A stretch of 64,000 nucleotides of DNA from Candidatus Methylomirabilota bacterium (GTDB taxonomy: Bacteria; Methylomirabilota; Methylomirabilia; Methylomirabilales; Methylomirabilaceae), in the NCBI GenBank assembly GCA_003104975.1, contig PQAM01000004.1, positions 1 to 64,000 of the forward strand, in the 5' to 3' direction. The notes under the pieces were generated by a model. The model was not told where the DNA came from. It was given only the letters and a program-made list of their open reading frames with translations, and did no database searches. Numbering within the stretch: position 1 is the stretch's first letter; each line of letters opens with the position of its first letter. The translations under genes were made by a program, and so were the position numbers. Below are positions 38,783 through 46,372 of the stretch, one piece after another.

Positions 38783-39103
38783 ATGGCAATGTACGATCTC
38801 ATGACGACCCACCCAATCAGAAGTGAGCATGTGACCTGGAAGGTCATCGAGGGTGAGAGCGTCCTCCTCGATCTGAAAACCGGTGTCTATTTCAGCCTGA
38901 ATGAGACCGGGACGCTCGCCTGGGAACAGTTCGACGGCTCAACCTCGCTCGCAACGGTCGGCCACGCCCTTTCCGGCCGATTTGACGTTTCGGCGGAACA
39001 GGTGCGCCAAGATCTCTGTGATTTAACGGAGACGCTCCTGAAAGAAGGACTGGTGAAGATCCGTGAAGACCGTCCGCCGTCTTCGGGAACTGACCGATCC
39101 TGA
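38783..39103 (+). CDS. PqqD-family leader-binding protein (RiPP recognition element, B1-like)
   Basis: 106 residues from ATG 38783 (AAGGGA upstream). The winged-helix PqqD fold is clear: V-T-W-K-V-I-E-G-E-S-V-L-L-D-L-K-T-G-V-Y-F-S-L-N near 15-40, then T-G-x-L-A-W-E-Q-F-D. Such proteins grip the leader of a precursor peptide and hand it to the modifying enzymes. No pqq genes are near; the next gene is a lasso-type B2 protease, so this is B1-like rather than for PQQ. It overlaps the B2 gene by 41 bases. Confidence 0.92.
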   Translation: MAMYDLMTTHPIRSEHVTWKVIEGESVLLDLKTGVYFSLNETGTLAWEQFDGSTSLATVGHALSGRFDVSAEQVRQDLCDLTETLLKEGLVKIREDRPPSSGTDRS

Positions 39104-39566
39104 GTCGCTTCGGCTCTTTGGTTGGTCCATGCTGACTATCTGCCTGGCGGCAGTCCTCTTGCGTACCAGGAGGTTGCCTGCATTGCTCTGCTATTTGAGC
39201 AGGCCGTCTCATTCGTGCACCGGCGGCAACGCGCGACTGGGATGTGATGCCCGTTCGTTAGACCGGGTCCGCCGATATAGCCATGCGATCATCACATGCC
39301 TCCTCCGTTCGCGGCGCCCGTGCTTGCTGCGTTCCATGGTCCTGTATCGATACTGTTGGAAACGAGGTAGGCCGGTCGCGATACACTTTGGGGTAAGACC
39401 AGGCACTGATGGGTTGGAAGGTCATAGCTGGGTCACACTTGACGGGACGCCGGTTGGTGAATCGGAAGAGGCATTGCGTCCCTACGTTGCTGTTTATTCC
39501 TACCCGCCGGATTTCGCTGAAACCCTCCATCAGCAAGCCTTGGCAATAGCCGACTGGCAACCATGA
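39063..39566 (+). CDS. lasso-type B2 leader protease (transglutaminase-like cysteine protease)
   Basis: 167 residues. N-terminal membrane-like helix (about 20-43), then the papain/transglutaminase-like fold of lasso peptide B2 proteins. The proposed triad is C87 (R-R-P-C-L-L-R-S), H121 (G-H-S-W-V) and D127 (T-L-D-G). It should cut precursor peptides two residues after the conserved Thr. Its stop overlaps the ATG of the next frame (ATGA), the same coupling seen with the radical SAM gene. A truncated second copy of its C-terminus is at 44050-44187. Confidence 0.88.
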   Translation: MKTVRRLRELTDPESLRLFGWSMLTICLAAVLLRTRRLPALLCYLSRPSHSCTGGNARLGCDARSLDRVRRYSHAIITCLLRSRRPCLLRSMVLYRYCWKRGRPVAIHFGVRPGTDGLEGHSWVTLDGTPVGESEEALRPYVAVYSYPPDFAETLHQQALAIADWQP

Positions 39567-39788
39567 TCGGACAACTTGTCGAAGCGGGATGCCGCGCCAT
39601 CCATCCTCAGGCTGAGTGGGGGGCTTTCATTTGAGAGTATCGCCCGGCTGATTCGGGAGATGAAGGCAATGGGAGTCACAATCCTGATCATCGGCGATCT
39701 CCATGCCTGTGGAGGCGGGACATTCGGCGTGCGCGTGGGGAGCCGGCATTGCCTGAAACGACTCTGGGACGGAGGAGGAACTGCATGA
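39563..39788 (+). pseudogene. gutted copy of the radical SAM RiPP enzyme
   Basis: Begins ATGATCGGACA like the intact gene at 44192. Only three pieces remain: codons matching residues 1-13, then 69-97 (A-E-W-G ... I-A-R-L-I-R-E-M-K) and then about 338-365 (H-A-C-G-G-G-T-F ... H-C-L-K-R-L-W). Two internal deletions removed the CxxxCxxC core and most of the barrel. An extra G in the tract after G-A-G-T-G-G also shifts the frame. The 3' end still overlaps precursor 1 by ATGA. Confidence 0.9.
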
Positions 39789-39901
39789 AAAAAGATATCG
39801 CCATAGAAAGCCAGAAGACGCCCTACACGAAGCCAGCCTTGACGAAGCACAAGCCGCTGCGGGACATTACGGCCGGAGATCTCTCGACTACTCGCGGGTA
39901 A
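39785..39901 (+). CDS. RiPP precursor peptide 1 (lasso-type leader)
   Basis: 38 residues. GGAGGAGGAA precedes the ATG, which overlaps the radical SAM remnant (ATGA). Leader block P-Y-T-K-P-A-L-T-K-H-K-P-L-R-D-I-T, then A-G-D-L-S-T-T-R-G. It matches the lasso leader rule Y1-x2-P4-x-L6 ... T16, with K where lasso leaders have G10. Confidence 0.85.
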   Translation: MKKDIAIESQKTPYTKPALTKHKPLRDITAGDLSTTRG

Positions 39902-39977
39902 GGCAATAGGTAGGTGGCTACTTCCCGACATGATACAGTCTTTGGCATGGTATGCGCGCACGGCAAGGAACAATCCG

Positions 39978-40085
39978 ATGAAGAGCGTTCCATCTGACAT
40001 GAAAGCGCCATGCGTGGAACCAACGCTGACGAAGCACAAGCCGCTGCGGGATATTGCGGCGCAAAACCAATCAGATTTGGGTTAG
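39978..40085 (+). CDS. RiPP precursor peptide 2 (diverged leader)
   Basis: 35 residues, ATG with AAGGAA upstream. Leader block P-C-V-E-P-T-L-T-K-H-K-P-L-R-D-I-A: the key Tyr is Cys and the final Thr is Ala. Tail A-Q-N-Q-S-D-L-G. The 18 bases encoding T-K-H-K-P-L are near-identical to precursor 1, so it is a recent duplicate; the lost Tyr and Thr may mean it is no longer recognised. Confidence 0.7.
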   Translation: MKSVPSDMKAPCVEPTLTKHKPLRDIAAQNQSDLG

Positions 40086-40179
40086 CGTACACGATAGGAC
40101 CGACAGCGTCGCCGGTCTGAATCAATAGCCGTGTTGGTCCGGTTGTCGGTAGCGGCATTTGTGGGGTGAGAACAGTTTG

Positions 40180-41187
40180 ATGAGGCAAACATTTGACCTA
40201 TACGGCGTCGGTATCCGAGTAGACACCGATATTCCATTGCTCGCCGCCGGGATTGGCGATTTGCTGCGTCAGTTTGCTCAGGCGTCCGTTACTGGCAATC
40301 AGCCGCTGCAGTTTACCTACGCCAGGGGCAAAAAGATCCCGGAGTACTCTCCAAACGGATCAGTCGAAAGAGACGAGTCGCTGCTCTTCTCTACCTCATG
40401 GGAGAATGCCTTCGATCTTGCCGGTCGACTGGGCATTGACTGGGACGTCTACGCCAGGGATGGCGGTCTGCTGCTGGATTACCATCGGCGGGGCCGGTTA
40501 TGGCTCGATACATCCGGCGGACGGCTGGATGGATCCCTGATTGAGCCGCTGGATCTGCACCAGGCGTTGCTCCCCAGCATATTTTTCTTCTTCCCGTTCG
40601 CGCAGCTATTGGCCCGACGCGGACTCCATGTCGTACACGCGGCAGCTCTGGAGCGGAACGGGCGCGGTGTGCTGATCCCCGGGGTAAGCGGGAGCGGGAA
40701 GAGCACGAGTTGCGTCTCCCTCATGCGGGCAGGGTATCGCTGCCTCTCAGACGACAAACCGTTTCTACGGGAGAACGGAAGCGGTATCGAACTTCTTCCT
40801 TTTCCCGAGATGATCGACGTCACCGATCAGTCCGTTGCCTTCTTTCCCGAACTCAGCAAAGCGGCAACAGCTCTCGAGTCAGGCTTCCGAAAGAAGCGGT
40901 TTTGCGCCGAGGCCCTGTATCCCGGCTCTACAGCCGACGCCGTGAGACCCAGTGTTATCCTGTTTCCGAAAATCACTCAAAAATCGACAAGCAGCGTTGA
41001 GGCGCTGTCGCGAGTGCAGGCACTCCAGATGCTCCTGCCGCATAGCCTGCTCTGCTTTGACCGAACGATCGCGGCACGTCATTTTGAACTGCTTGCGCAT
41101 CTTGTCGAGACGACCACCTGCTATCGTCTTCATTTTGGTCGCGACGTCTTAGACCTCCCACGCCTGGTCGATCGGCTTCTGGAATGA
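40180..41187 (+). CDS. HprK-related kinase
   Basis: 335 residues from ATG 40180 (GGGGTGAG upstream). The kinase half has the P-loop G-V-S-G-S-G-K-S (168-175) and the HprK-type S-D-D-K (about 193). The first half is a poorly conserved region usual in this family. Related kinases phosphorylate the C-terminal serine of some lasso peptides (paeninodin-type clusters), and others belong to the HPr-rel-A systems that pair with PqqD-like and nucleotidyltransferase-family proteins. The Ser residues in precursor tails are possible targets. ATGA coupling to the next gene. Confidence 0.85.
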   Translation: MRQTFDLYGVGIRVDTDIPLLAAGIGDLLRQFAQASVTGNQPLQFTYARGKKIPEYSPNGSVERDESLLFSTSWENAFDLAGRLGIDWDVYARDGGLLLDYHRRGRLWLDTSGGRLDGSLIEPLDLHQALLPSIFFFFPFAQLLARRGLHVVHAAALERNGRGVLIPGVSGSGKSTSCVSLMRAGYRCLSDDKPFLRENGSGIELLPFPEMIDVTDQSVAFFPELSKAATALESGFRKKRFCAEALYPGSTADAVRPSVILFPKITQKSTSSVEALSRVQALQMLLPHSLLCFDRTIAARHFELLAHLVETTTCYRLHFGRDVLDLPRLVDRLLE

Positions 41188-42287
41188 TCCGTTCGCCGGA
41201 GCGAGAGACTCTTCTGAACATGCTCCGAGCCTCGCTTCATGACGAGCCGATAGTCACCGCACCGACGTTGCCCCCTTTTGACTGGTACTCACTTCAGCGA
41301 CTGGTCCGTCATCACCGGGTCGGGCCGCTCCTCGCGTACGGTCTCCGTCGTACCCGATTTGCCGGGGTACCCGATTGGGTACGTTCGGAATGGGACGCAC
41401 AGCGCCGCGAAGCGGTCGCTAATGACCTGTACCATGTGCAGGCGCTGGAGGAGTTGGCAATACTTTTCGAGGCCCATGATATCCCGTTCATCCTGCTCAA
41501 GGGCGAGGCGCTCTCGAAGACATACTATCCGGTCGAAGGGCTGCGGCCCTATAACGACATCGATATCCTGATCACACAAGACACGTACGAGGCGGCGAAA
41601 GCCGCGCTGACGGCGGTCGGATTTCTACCGAGATACCCACATCTCGAATCCGAGAAGCGCGAACTGTTCGGAGAGATAGAATTCGATCGGCAGGGTCCAC
41701 GAACGCTGACGGTAGACCTCCATTGGGATACCCTGATGGCCTCTTGGGGGCCGCCATCGCTTCTGCATGAGACACTCGTGTGGGAATGCGTCGATCGGAT
41801 TCACGTCGGCGGGCGAATCGTACCGGTCCTCAGTGGCGAGATTCTCTTACTGTACCTCTGCGTTCACTTTGCGTTTCATCATGTGTTTGATGGGTTGATC
41901 CTCCTGTGCGATCTGTTTCTCACCCTCAGACGCGACGGCAATCACACCGACTGGGATCGTTTTTTTCGGATGGCCCACCGCCATCAGTGCCGCCAGGCCG
42001 CCTACTACGCGCTGAGCTGCGTTCAAGCGCTTCTGGATGCGCCGGTCCCGACACTCGTCTTGGACCGTTTGCGACCGCCGGCTCAGGTCCGGCTTCTGAT
42101 GCCAACGGACAGACTGCTCGTGCGTGACAAGGCGGTCCCGCAGATACTGGAGCGGTTTGTCAAGTTCCTGCTGATTGACACTGAGGCGGGCCGCTGGCGG
42201 GCGGCGCGGAGTTGGTGGCAGTCGAGTAAGCCGTGGATGACCAAGCGGGAGTCGACCGTTCCGTTCTCTCCCTTGCATTGGAAGTGA
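41184..42287 (+). CDS. nucleotidyltransferase-family protein (NTP_transf_5-like)
   Basis: 367 residues. Motifs L-L-K-G-E-A-L-S-K-T-Y-Y-P (104-116) and R-P-Y-N-D-I-D-I-L-I (121-130) with the acidic pair D125/D127 match the uncharacterised nucleotidyltransferase family often found beside HprK-related kinases and lasso operons. It may transfer a nucleotide to the phosphorylated peptide or to a sugar; the substrate is unknown. Coupled to the kinase gene by ATGA. Its stop lies where the enoyl reductase tail copy begins. Confidence 0.85.
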   Translation: MIRSPERETLLNMLRASLHDEPIVTAPTLPPFDWYSLQRLVRHHRVGPLLAYGLRRTRFAGVPDWVRSEWDAQRREAVANDLYHVQALEELAILFEAHDIPFILLKGEALSKTYYPVEGLRPYNDIDILITQDTYEAAKAALTAVGFLPRYPHLESEKRELFGEIEFDRQGPRTLTVDLHWDTLMASWGPPSLLHETLVWECVDRIHVGGRIVPVLSGEILLLYLCVHFAFHHVFDGLILLCDLFLTLRRDGNHTDWDRFFRMAHRHQCRQAAYYALSCVQALLDAPVPTLVLDRLRPPAQVRLLMPTDRLLVRDKAVPQILERFVKFLLIDTEAGRWRAARSWWQSSKPWMTKRESTVPFSPLHWK

Positions 42288-42363
42288 TGGAGAACCCCAC
42301 AATATCTTCGCCCCCATCCACCCCGATAACATTCCCTGTCGTCCAGTAGGTCTCCGGACGACT
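42286..42363 (-). pseudogene. 3' end fragment of the enoyl reductase gene
   Basis: 78 bases that match 45548-45625, the end of the enoyl reductase gene, with about eight differences. The encoded stretch S-R-P-E-T-Y-W-x-T-G-N-V-I-G-V-D-G-G is conserved. No other part of that gene is present. Confidence 0.88.
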
Positions 42364-42429
42364 TAACCCAAACATTGCCGTTGACTTCACACGGTAGCCT
42401 TTAATGCTTGAACTGCATGCTGATATGGG

Positions 42430-42458
42430 TTGACAGAATCCTCCAGCAAGGATATCTT
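42430..42458 (+). promoter_or_regulatory. promoter for precursor 3 and the Mur-ligase gene
   Basis: TTGACA (42430-42435), 17-base spacer, TATCTT (42453-42458); 57 bases before the precursor 3 ATG. Confidence 0.65.
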
Positions 42459-42515
42459 TTTCGGGTATGTGTCGCTTACGAGGCAGCCCGATAACCCATT
42501 GTCCAGGAGTGAGAA

Positions 42516-42656
42516 ATGAGAGAGACAGAAGAGCTTCGTCGGCTTGTTAACGGTGAGGTCGAGGAAGGCAAGGCCCCCTACCATCGGCCTATCCTCAGGC
42601 GTATAGGGTGGCTTCGGGATGTGACCGCTCAGGCAAGTCCTGATCTGGCGCAGTAG
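42516..42656 (+). CDS. RiPP precursor peptide 3 (canonical lasso-type leader)
   Basis: 46 residues, ATG six bases after AGGAG. Leader block P-Y-H-R-P-I-L-R-R-I-G-W-L-R-D-V-T fits the lasso leader rule exactly: Y1, P4, L6, G10, T16. Tail A-Q-A-S-P-D-L-A-Q. It has its own promoter and is not next to a radical SAM gene, so it may serve the Mur-ligase branch of the locus. The N-terminus is acidic (E-T-E-E-L ... E-V-E-E-G). Confidence 0.85.
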   Translation: MRETEELRRLVNGEVEEGKAPYHRPILRRIGWLRDVTAQASPDLAQ

Positions 42657-42712
42657 CCCCTTGTCTCTTCACTGAACCGCCTGACCCCTGGGCGCCTGCA
42701 AGGCGAAGCCGG

Positions 42713-44065
42713 GTGGATGTGACAATAGTTGCACTGGGAAGGCGCCTGCGCGCGTTTCTCCGATCGCCGCACAAGCTACAGAAGCTGCAGGACTCCTTCC
42801 ATGATTTAGGTTGGCGCGCCCTCACGATCTGGTCCCGCTGGAGACTGAAGGGATACCACGGGCGCCTTATCACGATCACCGGCACCAAAGGGAAGACCAC
42901 GACTGCCCGCCTGATCTCCAGAATATTTGCGGATGCCGGTTATCAGGTGGGGACGGCCTGCAGCGGAGGCGTTTATGTCAACGGTCGCTGTGTTCTGAGG
43001 GGGCCATTCTCAGGTGCAGACGGCCCCATCAGGGCCTGCCGAGCCGGAGGGCGCGATCTTCTCGTGCTGGAGACCGCCCATGGCGGGATACAGCGGTATG
43101 GGTTCGGATTCTCCGGCTGTGACGTCGCCATCTTCACCAATATTACCGATGGGCACCTGGGCGAGTTGGGGATCGAAACCCTGGAGGAGATGTTGGCGCT
43201 GAAATGGAGGTTGGCGTCCACTATCCGTCCGGGAGGGACTGTGATTCTGAATGCCGATGATCCCCTTCTGGCCGCGTTGCGTCCTCCGCAAGGTGTTGCG
43301 GTGGTCTATGTCAGCCTCACTGGAGGACTTACGCGGGGCAATGCCGACATCGAGGCGCCTCTTTATCAATGCTCCGACCATGGAACGGTGGTGAAAGCAT
43401 GTGCCGGATTCTCCTCCACTGTTGCCGAGGTCCCGGACGCACCCCTGCTTGGCAAGGGCTTTGCTTCATACAACGCCTACAACCTGCTGGCAGCCGTCGC
43501 TTGCGTGGAGGCTTTGGATCGCTTCCTGCCCGTCTCACGGGAGTCGCTTCTCAAGAGTCTCTTGTCTTTCGGGGCGGTCCCTGACGATAATCCCGGGCAC
43601 TTCAATCTGTTCGAGGGTTCACGGGGAAGAGTGCTCCTCCTGGGAGGGAGCAACAGGGACAGTTATCAGCGAGACGCCCAGGCCCTTGCCCGAATACGAG
43701 CCTGCCAGCCTTTTCCTGTGGGACGCATTGTCGGGGTCATCACAGCCATCGGGATGCAGTCAACATCTTACATCCGTGATCTTGTCGGGATTGTCGCCAC
43801 TGTGTGCGACGAGGTCATCATTCGGGAACCACTACCACGATACCGGTACGGGAAAGCTCCGGGAGCGATCTCTTCCATCCTGAAGACGGCGGCGTTGGAA
43901 TCCGGCATCCCTCATCACGCCATTCGCATATGTGACGAGACATCTGATCTCATCGAAGACGTCATTCTTCCTAGTGGAGAGTCAGACTTTTTGTTTGCGG
44001 TCTTTTGTGCATTTGCCCAGGAGCCTATAGTGGAGCTCTGTCGGCGGTTGGGGCGACTTGGGTAA
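42713..44065 (+). CDS. Mur-ligase-family ATP-dependent amide ligase (cyanophycin synthetase-like C-half)
   Basis: 450 residues. P-loop G-T-K-G-K-T-T-T (57-64), L-E-T-A-H-G-G-I-Q-R-Y-G and T-N-I-T-D-G-H-L-G (about 140-148), then D-D-N-P-G-H-F and a C-terminal ligase domain. It resembles the Mur-ligase half of cyanophycin synthetase and PgsB-like enzymes, which form amide bonds through acyl phosphates. Peptidoglycan Mur genes are not nearby. Inside a RiPP locus without lasso cyclase, it is a candidate for closing or extending the peptide. GTG start; the 3' end runs into the B2 remnant. Confidence 0.85.
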   Translation: MDVTIVALGRRLRAFLRSPHKLQKLQDSFHDLGWRALTIWSRWRLKGYHGRLITITGTKGKTTTARLISRIFADAGYQVGTACSGGVYVNGRCVLRGPFSGADGPIRACRAGGRDLLVLETAHGGIQRYGFGFSGCDVAIFTNITDGHLGELGIETLEEMLALKWRLASTIRPGGTVILNADDPLLAALRPPQGVAVVYVSLTGGLTRGNADIEAPLYQCSDHGTVVKACAGFSSTVAEVPDAPLLGKGFASYNAYNLLAAVACVEALDRFLPVSRESLLKSLLSFGAVPDDNPGHFNLFEGSRGRVLLLGGSNRDSYQRDAQALARIRACQPFPVGRIVGVITAIGMQSTSYIRDLVGIVATVCDEVIIREPLPRYRYGKAPGAISSILKTAALESGIPHHAIRICDETSDLIEDVILPSGESDFLFAVFCAFAQEPIVELCRRLGRLG

Positions 44066-44187
44066 CGCTTAACGGCGCCCCCTTGGATGAGTCGGAAGAA
44101 GGGCCGTGTCCATACGTGGACTTCTATTCGTACCCTGCAGCTACCGCCAAGGCCGTCCCCCAGCAAGCCTTGGTGGTGGTCGCCTGA
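44050..44187 (+). pseudogene. C-terminal remnant of a second B2 protease
   Basis: W-V-T-L-N-G-A-P-L-D-E-S-E-E ... Y-S-Y-P ... Q-Q-A-L matches residues 121-167 of the B2 protein at 39063, but the Cys and His part is missing. The stop TGA lies five bases before the radical SAM ATG. Confidence 0.88.
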
Positions 44188-44191
44188 AGCC

Positions 44192-45289
44192 ATGATCGGA
44201 CATCTCATCGAAATAGGATGTCGCGTCACACCCGGTCTCAGCCGCTGGTACCTGGACCATTACGTCAGCATCAAGCGTTTCGAGAAACAGGTCCGACGCA
44301 ACTTGGGGTTCCCTGCCCCCCCATCCTCGGTTACGCTCCTCATCACCTACACCTGTAACTTTGGCTGCTACCATTGCGAATCGACCTCCGACCCCAAAGC
44401 CGAGTGGGGACTTCCATTCGAGACCATCGCCCGACTGATTCGAGAGATAAAGGAGATGGGGGTCAAGACCCTGATCATCTCTGGCGGTGAACCGCTCGTC
44501 AGGCCCGATCTGTTTGAGATTCTCGAATTGGTTAATCAACATGGTTTTAACGTGATGTTGTGTACGAACGGCAGTCTGGTGGAGCGGCATCGGGACCGGC
44601 TGGCGCGGGCCCACCTGGATTGTGTTATGACCAGCGTCGATGGCCTGGAGGAGACCAATGATCGGTTCCGGCACTACCCTGGGGCGTACAAGCAGACGTT
44701 CCGAGCACTTGAGCTGTTTCAGCAGATAGGTGTCGGCGGCCGAGTGGTGAATACAATGCTGCACCCCGACAATCTTGACGAACTCGAGGAACTTGGCGAC
44801 CGGATCATGCATTCGGCTGCAACGCGCTGGCGGATCGCCCTGGCGCTCCCGTCAGGAAGAGCCAAGGGGCAGGATCGCTTCTGCCTCACCGACGACCAGA
44901 TTCGATCGGTCCTGCGGTTCATCCGTGATCGATGCGCACGATTCCCCGTGTATCTGAGTGAAGAGGTCGGTTACGTGGGGCCGTGGGCCCTTCAAGTGCG
45001 ACCAAGACCGTTCAGTTCCGGCGATGGGCTGAGTCACTTTGCCATTATGCCGACGGGCGATGTGATCGGCTCTGCGGTGCTTCATGATGTCGCCTATTCG
45101 GAAGGGAACATCAAGGAGCAGACCCTCAAGGAGATCTGGCGAGATGGCTTCCAGCGATATCGGCAGCCGGTCCTCCCGGATGCCTGCTATGAGTGCCGTT
45201 ATCTTTATGCCTGCGGAGGGGGCACGTATGCAATGCGCGTCGGCAATCGTCACTGCCTAAAACAACTTTGGGAAGGGGGAGACCAATGA
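44192..45289 (+). CDS. radical SAM / SPASM-like peptide-modifying enzyme
   Basis: 365 residues from ATG 44192. The SAM cluster motif is C55-x3-C59-x2-C62 (T-C-N-F-G-C-Y-H-C), with S-G-G-E-P (98-102) for SAM binding. A C-terminal group C332, C335, C341 and C355 (C-Y-E-C ... A-C-G-G-G) is of the SPASM/twitch kind and should hold an auxiliary cluster. Reaction unknown: thioether, C-C crosslink or epimerisation are family possibilities. It is translationally coupled (ATGA) to precursor 4, which is its most likely substrate. Confidence 0.93.
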   Translation: MIGHLIEIGCRVTPGLSRWYLDHYVSIKRFEKQVRRNLGFPAPPSSVTLLITYTCNFGCYHCESTSDPKAEWGLPFETIARLIREIKEMGVKTLIISGGEPLVRPDLFEILELVNQHGFNVMLCTNGSLVERHRDRLARAHLDCVMTSVDGLEETNDRFRHYPGAYKQTFRALELFQQIGVGGRVVNTMLHPDNLDELEELGDRIMHSAATRWRIALALPSGRAKGQDRFCLTDDQIRSVLRFIRDRCARFPVYLSEEVGYVGPWALQVRPRPFSSGDGLSHFAIMPTGDVIGSAVLHDVAYSEGNIKEQTLKEIWRDGFQRYRQPVLPDACYECRYLYACGGGTYAMRVGNRHCLKQLWEGGDQ

Positions 45290-45411
45290 GGGAAGTCCAG
45301 GAACAGCACGTCTGTGAGACCGACCCGAAACAGCCCTATATCAAGCCGATGCTTACGAAGCACAAGCCGCTGCGGGATATTACCGGCGTCGCCCAGAGCC
45401 CCATTAACTAA
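45286..45411 (+). CDS. RiPP precursor peptide 4 (lasso-type leader)
   Basis: 41 residues. GGAAGGGGGA precedes the ATG, which overlaps the radical SAM stop. Leader block P-Y-I-K-P-M-L-T-K-H-K-P-L-R-D-I-T, then G-V-A-Q-S-P-I-N. It keeps Y1, P4, L6 and T16 of the lasso leader rule. The tail has no Asp/Glu that could close a lasso ring. Confidence 0.88.
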   Translation: MREVQEQHVCETDPKQPYIKPMLTKHKPLRDITGVAQSPIN

Positions 45412-45502: not shown

Positions 45503-46372
45503 TCAGGCGGTCGGTGACTTCTCTGTGCCTGCCGCCGCAAAAGGTGAGATGCAGAATCCCACAATATCCTCGCCCCCATCCACCCCGATAACGTTCCCTG
45601 TTATCCAGTAGGTCTCCGGGCGGCTCAAGACGACGAGCGCCGCCGCAACATCTTCCGGCGTGGTGAGGCGTCCGGAAGGGTTGAGTCCCTGCGCCGTCCG
45701 AATAATCTCATCATTTCCCGGAATCTTCCGAAGCGCTGGCGTGTCGGTGACCCCGGCTCGGATAGTGTTCGCCGTAATCCCCAGAGGGGCCAACTCCATC
45801 GCGAGCTGCCGGATGTGCGACTCCAGGGCCGCCTTGGCCGCCGATACAGCCCCATAGCCGGACCAGACCCGCGTCCCCCCCGAACTGGTCATGGCGTAGA
45901 CTCGACCGCCGCGAATCATTAACTGTCGCATCACCAGATCCTGAACCCAATAGACGAGGCTATGCGCCATCACATCCAGGGTCATATCCATCTGCGCCTG
46001 TGTAATGGCGCCCTTCGGCGACGACGCGAGGAACGGCTTCAGGGTCCCGAAGGCGAGGGAGTGCAGGATGACCTTCACCGAGGAGGGCTCGCCGCGATCG
46101 GCCAGGATCTTCTCGATCTGATCCAGCACCTCGCGCCGCTTCTCCGGATCGGAGGCATTGACGTTGAAGAAGATCGCCCCCCGCCCCTTCTGTTGAATCC
46201 CGGTGACGATCCGTTCGACATTCGGCATGGTGGCCTTGCGGTCCAGATGTACGCCGACGATGTCCATCCCTGCGTCGGCCAACGCAAGGCAGGCGGCCTC
46301 ACCGAAACCGCTGGAGGCCCCCAGGATCAGGGCCCACCCCTGGAGTTCCGAACTCTGTGATGGTATGGTCAT
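45503..46372 (-). CDS. fabI: enoyl-ACP reductase-like short-chain dehydrogenase
   Basis: 289 residues. NAD(P)H-binding G-A-S-S-G-F-G and the active-site pattern Y-G-A-V-S-A-A-K, i.e. Y-x6-K, which marks enoyl-ACP reductases (FabI/FabL) rather than the Y-x3-K of ordinary SDRs. V-T-D-T-P-A-L-R-K-I-P-G is also FabI/FabL-like. It should complete fatty acid elongation. Convergent with the RiPP operon; its last 78 bases are copied at 42286-42363. Confidence 0.85.
   Translation of the reverse strand: MTIPSQSSELQGWALILGASSGFGEAACLALADAGMDIVGVHLDRKATMPNVERIVTGIQQKGRGAIFFNVNASDPEKRREVLDQIEKILADRGEPSSVKVILHSLAFGTLKPFLASSPKGAITQAQMDMTLDVMAHSLVYWVQDLVMRQLMIRGGRVYAMTSSGGTRVWSGYGAVSAAKAALESHIRQLAMELAPLGITANTIRAGVTDTPALRKIPGNDEIIRTAQGLNPSGRLTTPEDVAAALVVLSRPETYWITGNVIGVDGGEDIVGFCISPFAAAGTEKSPTA

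Follow-up and report, generated by a model that had tools for sequence, protein, structure and literature searches.

A ribosomal peptide locus of Candidatus Methylomirabilis with lasso-type leader processing and no lasso cyclase

Gene content of the locus

The stretch analysed here (the window; 64,000 nucleotides of contig PQAM01000004.1) forms the start of contig C4 of G000, a 3.0-Mb genome of the methane-oxidising Candidatus Methylomirabilis that is 99.99% complete. At 38.78-45.41 kb, on the plus strand, with a GspE-like ATPase gene on one side and the gene of a short-chain dehydrogenase (SDR) on the other, lies a locus for ribosomally synthesised and post-translationally modified peptides (RiPPs), which combines the leader-processing proteins of lasso peptide clusters with a kinase, a radical S-adenosylmethionine (SAM) enzyme and very short precursor cores. 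The order is PqqD, B2, radical SAM pseudogene, preA1, preA2, HprK-like kinase, NTP_transf_5, preA3, Mur ligase, B2-end remnant, radical SAM and preA4. A preliminary description had named a PqqD-like protein, a B2 protease, a radical SAM/SPASM-like enzyme, an HprK-related kinase, a nucleotidyltransferase-family protein and a Mur-family ligase, all of which were recovered by domain matches:

38783..39103, +, PqqD-type RiPP recognition element (B1); PF05402, 62 bits, 5.6e-17
39063..39566, +, B2 leader peptidase, transglutaminase-like; PF13471 56 bits, NF033537 54 bits (cut-off 33)
39564..39787, +, radical SAM pseudogene, internally deleted, 5' of preA1; its pieces correspond to 44193-44228, 44399-44479 and 45201-45281 within the intact gene
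39785..39901, +, precursor preA1, core GDLSTTRG; leader YTKPALTKHKPLRDIT; family model E 7.7e-17
39978..40085, +, precursor preA2, core QNQSDLG; leader partly degenerate; family model E 2.4e-15
40180..41187, +, HprK-like peptide kinase; PF07475 partial, TIGR04352 81 bits (under cut-off)
41184..42287, +, NTP_transf_5 protein; PF14907 2.9e-54
42286..42366, no strand given, copy of the SDR-gene 3' end, a rearrangement scar; 88.9% identity to 45548-45628
42516..42656, +, precursor preA3, Mur-linked subtype, core QASPDLAQ; leader YHRPILRRIGWLRDVT
42713..44065, +, Mur-ligase-family enzyme; PF08245 (Mur_ligase_M), resembling the C-terminal half of cyanophycin synthetase
44059..44189, +, copy of the B2 3' end (remnant); 68% identity to 39429-39599 over 171 bp
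44192..45289, +, radical SAM enzyme; PF04055 2.1e-27, PF13186 1.3e-5 (partial SPASM)
45286..45411, +, precursor preA4, core VAQSPIN; leader YIKPMLTKHKPLRDIT; start overlapping the radical SAM stop

The best NCBIfam matches of B1 are the lasso PqqD chaperones NF033530 and NF033536, both under cut-off. The Cys-His-Asp triad of B2, correctly given before as C87/H121/D127, is unchanged in seven homologues; no solved structure related to B2 was found by sequence. Duplicated and deleted pieces were located by comparing the window with itself, and the segment matched by the B2 remnant (39429-39599) extends into the start of the radical SAM gene. These pieces and a further precursor on contig C9, all absent from the preliminary description, indicate that the window locus is a rearranged version of a plainer operon found in relatives.

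Precursor peptides

In published lasso leaders the YxxPxL motif spans positions -17 to -12 and a threonine is found at -2 (PMC10368454). The four precursors recognised earlier are genuine short genes whose leaders show this same arrangement of YxxPxL and threonine, with Y-17, P-14, L-12 and T-2; the preA2 leader deviates at two sites (Cys at -17, Ala at -2). The predicted cut after T-x leaves cores of 8, 7, 8 and 7 residues for preA1 to preA4. Across a set of 35 precursors from eight Methylomirabilis genomes the leader is under purifying selection at the protein level (pN/pS 0.133, 29 copies), and the cores are hypervariable, mostly 5-13 residues long and in one case 21. A serine occupies core position +3 to +5 in 34 of the 35, compared with a mean of 14.8 and a maximum of 27 in 20,000 within-core shuffles; since the precursors are related, this count describes a constrained pattern and does not stand for 35 separate events.

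The 303 residues of these cores include no Cys, no Tyr, three Phe, one Trp and one His. The lack of Cys and Tyr argues against a thioether of the sactipeptide or ranthipeptide kind and against a Tyr-based radical SAM cross-link, both of which were rejected, and a conserved core aromatic, as in triceptides and aromatic cyclophanes, is absent from the 35 cores. Lasso cores have about 13 residues or more and an Asp or Glu at ring position 7-9; here that acidic residue was found in just 6 of the first 29 precursors.

A fifth G000 precursor, with the core GAGGSPQGPQ, stands alone on contig C9 (L102 5447-5325, ~14.33-14.45 kb), convergent with a PEP-CTERM protein gene. Extra precursors often have a leftover radical SAM 3' end upstream (L015 6836-6895, L016 5587-5661, L017 2671-5000, L104 4993-5443), from which the amplified unit seems to be a radical SAM tail plus precursor. 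In three genomes a PAP2 or vanadium-haloperoxidase-like gene lies among the precursors on the opposite strand (L015 5459-6679, Pfam-tested; L017 3012-4268; L105 3987-5318).

Absence of a lasso cyclase

Lasso peptides are usually recognised by the joint presence of B1, B2 and the cyclase. As the preliminary description had stated, no asparagine-synthetase homologue lies within the window locus. The only full-length relative in G000 is an amidotransferase/AsnB of the XrtA/PEP-CTERM type on contig C3, which scores 519 bits with TIGR01536 and 245 bits with the lasso-cyclase model NF033535 (cut-off 525); the search also returned one QueC-like match. In the complete genome G006, where B1, B2, a precursor and the kinase are present, NF033535 finds no lasso cyclase anywhere, and PF00733 gives two matches only, weak, short and, judged by size, of the QueC/GuaA kind. 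The asparagine-synthetase-like macrolactam cyclase (C protein) of lasso clusters is thus missing from the locus and from G006, and G000 has just the PEP-CTERM-type AsnB.

Two other genomes of the genus, G004 and G007, contain ordinary lasso loci with a cyclase and long cores; cores at cyclase loci measure 14-23 residues, as opposed to mostly 5-13 in the cyclase-less family. Cyclase-like sequence adjoins every examined B2 locus from the phylum's other genera apart from L114; in the short contig L108 this sequence is weak. At L114 (7627-8040; G072, another genus) B2 adjoins NTP_transf_5, and neither PqqD nor a cyclase was detected. Some ordinary lasso loci of the phylum carry two tandem cyclase-like genes (L110 4816-9709, L112 4032-7792, L115 2367-6151, L116 4453-8021, L122 1240-4554).

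Relatives in Methylomirabilis and the radical SAM enzyme

The B1-B2 clade and its precursors occur in seven Methylomirabilis genomes and are under purifying selection. The common layout is PqqD-B2-radical SAM-precursors, followed by kinase-NTP_transf_5 where the contig extends far enough. Between species, dN/dS is about 0.11-0.14 for the radical SAM enzyme, 0.12-0.18 for the kinase, 0.16-0.20 for NTP_transf_5 and 0.17-0.46 for B2. Orthologues of the radical SAM enzyme (74-83%) are present in G008, G009, G012, G013 and G014; a search of 95 genomes of the phylum (1e-40) gave none outside this genus.

In G006, PqqD-B2-precursor-kinase is located away from the GspE-SDR site, and the precursor core GDVSVIGGVRV keeps the serine. 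G006 has lost the radical SAM enzyme: no orthologue was found in this genome at E<=1e-40, and all that is left at its GspE-SDR site (L103 5942-6233) is a degraded precursor and pieces of the radical SAM gene.

The window enzyme has a CX3CX2C motif, and its C-terminal domain keeps four of the seven SPASM cysteines. With the mycofactocin maturase model (MftC, TIGR03962) it scores 130.6 bits, under the cut-off of 265, and its AlphaFold model, built from a six-row alignment, has a mean pLDDT of 50, too low for a fold search. None of the distant radical SAM relatives (L011-L014) adjoins B2 or PqqD, and the best B2 match in their genomes scored 20.7 bits and contained stop codons.

Recurrence in Bacillota

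A search with a model of the window-type B2 in 398 genomes of the phylum that includes the Peptococcaceae contig L013 yielded two Bacillota loci, L162 and L163. Both encode PqqD, B2, an HprK-like kinase, NTP_transf_5, DUF362 and a B12-binding radical SAM protein; no asparagine synthetase was detected within ~15 kb at either, the rest of the two genomes not having been searched. Their precursor-like open reading frames have lasso leaders and the cores GMPSEGGT, GEYNISDNGLG, GNGSGINGRS, GNVSGIVVNDQPV and GNYYPSNIGV, with serine at +4 in three of the five and at +6 in two.

The B2 tree and the kinase tree both place the cyclase-less loci of Methylomirabilota and Bacillota on the same side of a branch whose support is 100/99. 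The grouping of B2 is partly one of construction, since the window-type B2 model was the means of discovery; the grouping of the kinases, the short cores and the absent nearby cyclase are not built in by it, although the kinase tree includes no characterised lasso kinase from Bacillota, samples lasso kinases narrowly and has long branches at its joins. The kinase and the short serine core are kept where the radical SAM enzyme differs in type (Bacillota) or is lost (G006), and are thus the constant parts of the system. Plasmid sequences gave no tblastn match to the precursor consensus, the window B2 or the L163 B2; their radical SAM matches were less than 30% identical and belonged to mycofactocin, GDL-motif and similar families.

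Kinase and NTP_transf_5 protein

The kinase has the H/G/G/G/K/S/D/D motif with spacing identical to that of the lasso kinase BsfK, and all eight residues are present in five homologues. BsfK has been studied experimentally, and B1 speeds the phosphorylation of its precursor (PMC10368454). In pseudomycoidin, PsmK phosphorylates the peptide and PsmN is needed for the hexose on the phosphate (PMC8498205, PMC9266682); the NTP_transf_5 protein is of the annotated type shared with this nucleotidyltransferase. The preliminary description had listed the kinase and made no use of it; in combination with the conserved core serine it now constitutes the best lead.

Mur ligase sub-branch

The Mur ligase matches the cyanophycin synthetase model TIGR02068 over model positions 481-848 only (212 bits, cut-off 850) and PDB 7lg5 at 3e-33; it is therefore not a full cyanophycin synthetase. 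The corresponding part of that enzyme joins Arg to Asp. A Mur-type ligase adjoins precursors in six genomes (G000, G009, G011, G008, G013 and G014), with the preA3-Mur pairing also seen in G009 and G011. An acidic residue follows the serine in 9 of 10 Mur-adjacent cores versus 4 of 25 others (Fisher p 9e-5, descriptive as the sequences are related). In G013, G008, G014 and G012 the main loci with B1, B2 and radical SAM have no Mur gene, and none was found in G006; the ligase belongs with a separate precursor subset. In G008 a transposase-like gene separates the Mur paralogue from its precursor (L106 3200-4453, contig G008:C158), and in the G014 copy (L107) the gap is ~0.5 kb.

Proposed pathway and alternatives

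The suggestion that a lasso leader-processing pair without a cyclase serves another chemistry is supported by these results: related genomes carry the gene set too, and a cyclase was not found elsewhere. The word "recruited", used in the preliminary description, is not borne out, as the cyclase-less B2 proteins form a deep separate branch, compatible with either direction of change. Nor do the results support, in the form given there, the proposal that the radical SAM enzyme does the chemistry, perhaps with the Mur ligase, since G006 keeps B1, B2, precursor and kinase after loss of the former, the kinase and NTP_transf_5 stay in Bacillota while the radical SAM type differs, and the Mur ligase serves a subset of precursors. 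Given the constant serine and the constant kinase, the simplest reading is phosphorylation at the serine, elaboration by NTP_transf_5 and release by B2. We hold it somewhat more probable than its alternatives taken together that the locus uses lasso-type leader recognition and cleavage for a product other than a lasso peptide, in which the serine is phosphorylated and perhaps glycosylated.

In this pathway, each chemical step of which is inferred, B1 would bind the YxxPxL leader and hand the precursor to the HprK-like kinase, which would phosphorylate the conserved serine near core +4. The NTP_transf_5 protein would then elaborate the phosphate, probably by adding a sugar in the manner known from pseudomycoidin, and the radical SAM enzyme may contribute one further modification. 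B2 would cleave after Thr(-2)-x(-1) and release a short linear peptide, mostly of 5-13 residues. In the sub-branch, the cyanophycin-synthetase-like Mur ligase probably couples its own precursors, through an acidic residue, to an amine; an amide at that residue is a guess. Several points weigh against this pathway. Characterised lasso kinases target a C-terminal serine, which differs from the internal position at +3 to +5; the B2 cut site is predicted by analogy; and the Mur-linked precursors of G011 retain the serine in a genome (80% complete) in which no B2 was found. The relatedness of the precursors behind the serine count, the B2-based discovery of the Bacillota loci, the ~15 kb covered around them and the sampling of the kinase tree count on the same side.

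That the serine is instead the substrate of the radical SAM enzyme, for instance by oxidation, epimerisation or an ether cross-link, with another or a secondary role for the kinase and NTP_transf_5, seems unlikely but deserves consideration. The radical SAM gene sits between B2 and the precursor in relatives, its stop overlaps the preA4 start in the window, its tails are duplicated alongside precursors, it is under strong purifying selection, and in cores without Cys and Tyr the serine is the sole near-constant candidate residue. However, G006 keeps a serine precursor and the kinase without this enzyme, and in Bacillota a different radical SAM type goes with serine at equal spacing in three of five cores. 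A ring- or bond-forming role for the Mur ligase across the entire system is improbable: the ligase's position beside precursors and the acidic residue in its cores are consistent with such a role, but its absence from five genomes' B1-B2 loci confines it to the sub-branch.

The locus as a decaying, functionless relic of a lasso cluster is very improbable. Pseudogene pieces of radical SAM, B2 and SDR genes in the window and the eroded GspE-SDR site of G006 would fit decay, but several species have intact copies with low dN/dS, constrained leaders and invariant catalytic residues, and precursor numbers have grown, not shrunk; this explanation was rejected. We give marginally less credence still to a lasso peptide whose cyclase is encoded elsewhere in the genome, even though leader, B1, B2, kinase and NTP_transf_5 are all typical of the lasso clusters of this phylum; the genome-wide negative in G006, the PEP-CTERM-type AsnB as the only full-length relative in G000 and the short cores largely refute it, and it was likewise rejected.

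Returning to the phosphorylated linear peptide proposed above, we suggest more tentatively that such loci form a separate RiPP class in at least two phyla, with the B1/B2 leader machinery of lassos, a linear product of very few residues that carries phosphate or a phospho-sugar at a conserved internal serine, exchangeable radical SAM tailoring and, in one branch, a Mur ligase that adds an amine to an acidic residue. In both phyla, leader, B1, B2, kinase and NTP_transf_5 occur together and lack a cyclase, and the short, hypervariable cores are numerous. Should the proposal be correct, the HprK/NTP pair would gain a role outside lassos, and part of the cyclase-less lasso-type RiPP recognition elements (RREs) in surveys may represent a real separate pathway, not false positives. 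The nearest published hint is from RRE-Finder, in which just ~4,000 of ~8,000 lasso RRE matches have peptidase and cyclase and the lasso model often matches cyclase-less RREs, ~300 of them adjoining radical SAM enzymes (PMC7470986). The gene kit is small enough for co-expression.

Comparison with known systems

The combination is undescribed in the literature searched, in which no paper linked Methylomirabilis with lasso peptides and nothing relevant turned up for RiPPs in this group. Among systems that pair a PqqD-like RRE with a radical SAM/SPASM maturase, mycofactocin (MftB/MftC), PQQ (PqqD/PqqE) and the sactipeptides have other precursors, whereas the window locus adds a lasso B2, kinase and NTP_transf_5, retains four of seven SPASM cysteines and has cores without Cys or Tyr. 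The SynChlorMet cassette (Haft models ScmC, ScmD and ScmE/F) likewise joins HprK-like, PqqD-like and radical SAM/SPASM proteins, with weak model matches here, far under cut-off; it is not known to include B2 or a lasso leader. Cyanophycin synthetase aligns through its C-terminal Mur-like half with the window Mur ligase, which is in contrast a stand-alone protein of 450 aa that lacks the ATP-grasp half and adjoins RiPP precursors.

Closest are the lasso clusters themselves. Canonical loci of the genus and phylum (L037, L038 and most of L109-L126) share the gene kit, often including kinase and NTP_transf_5, but have a cyclase and cores of 14-23 residues, and their B2 and kinase fall across the supported branch. 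The phospho- and phosphoglyco-lasso clusters (paeninodin, BsfA of Bradymonas, pseudomycoidin) likewise have a discrete PqqD-type B1, B2, a YxxPxL leader, an HprK-like kinase and a nucleotidyltransferase-type protein; the window family differs from them in the missing cyclase, the far shorter cores mostly without a ring-position Asp/Glu, the internal serine and the added radical SAM enzyme. The locus thus falls outside the definition of a lasso cluster and resembles, in its operation, the first half of such a cluster together with its kinase branch.

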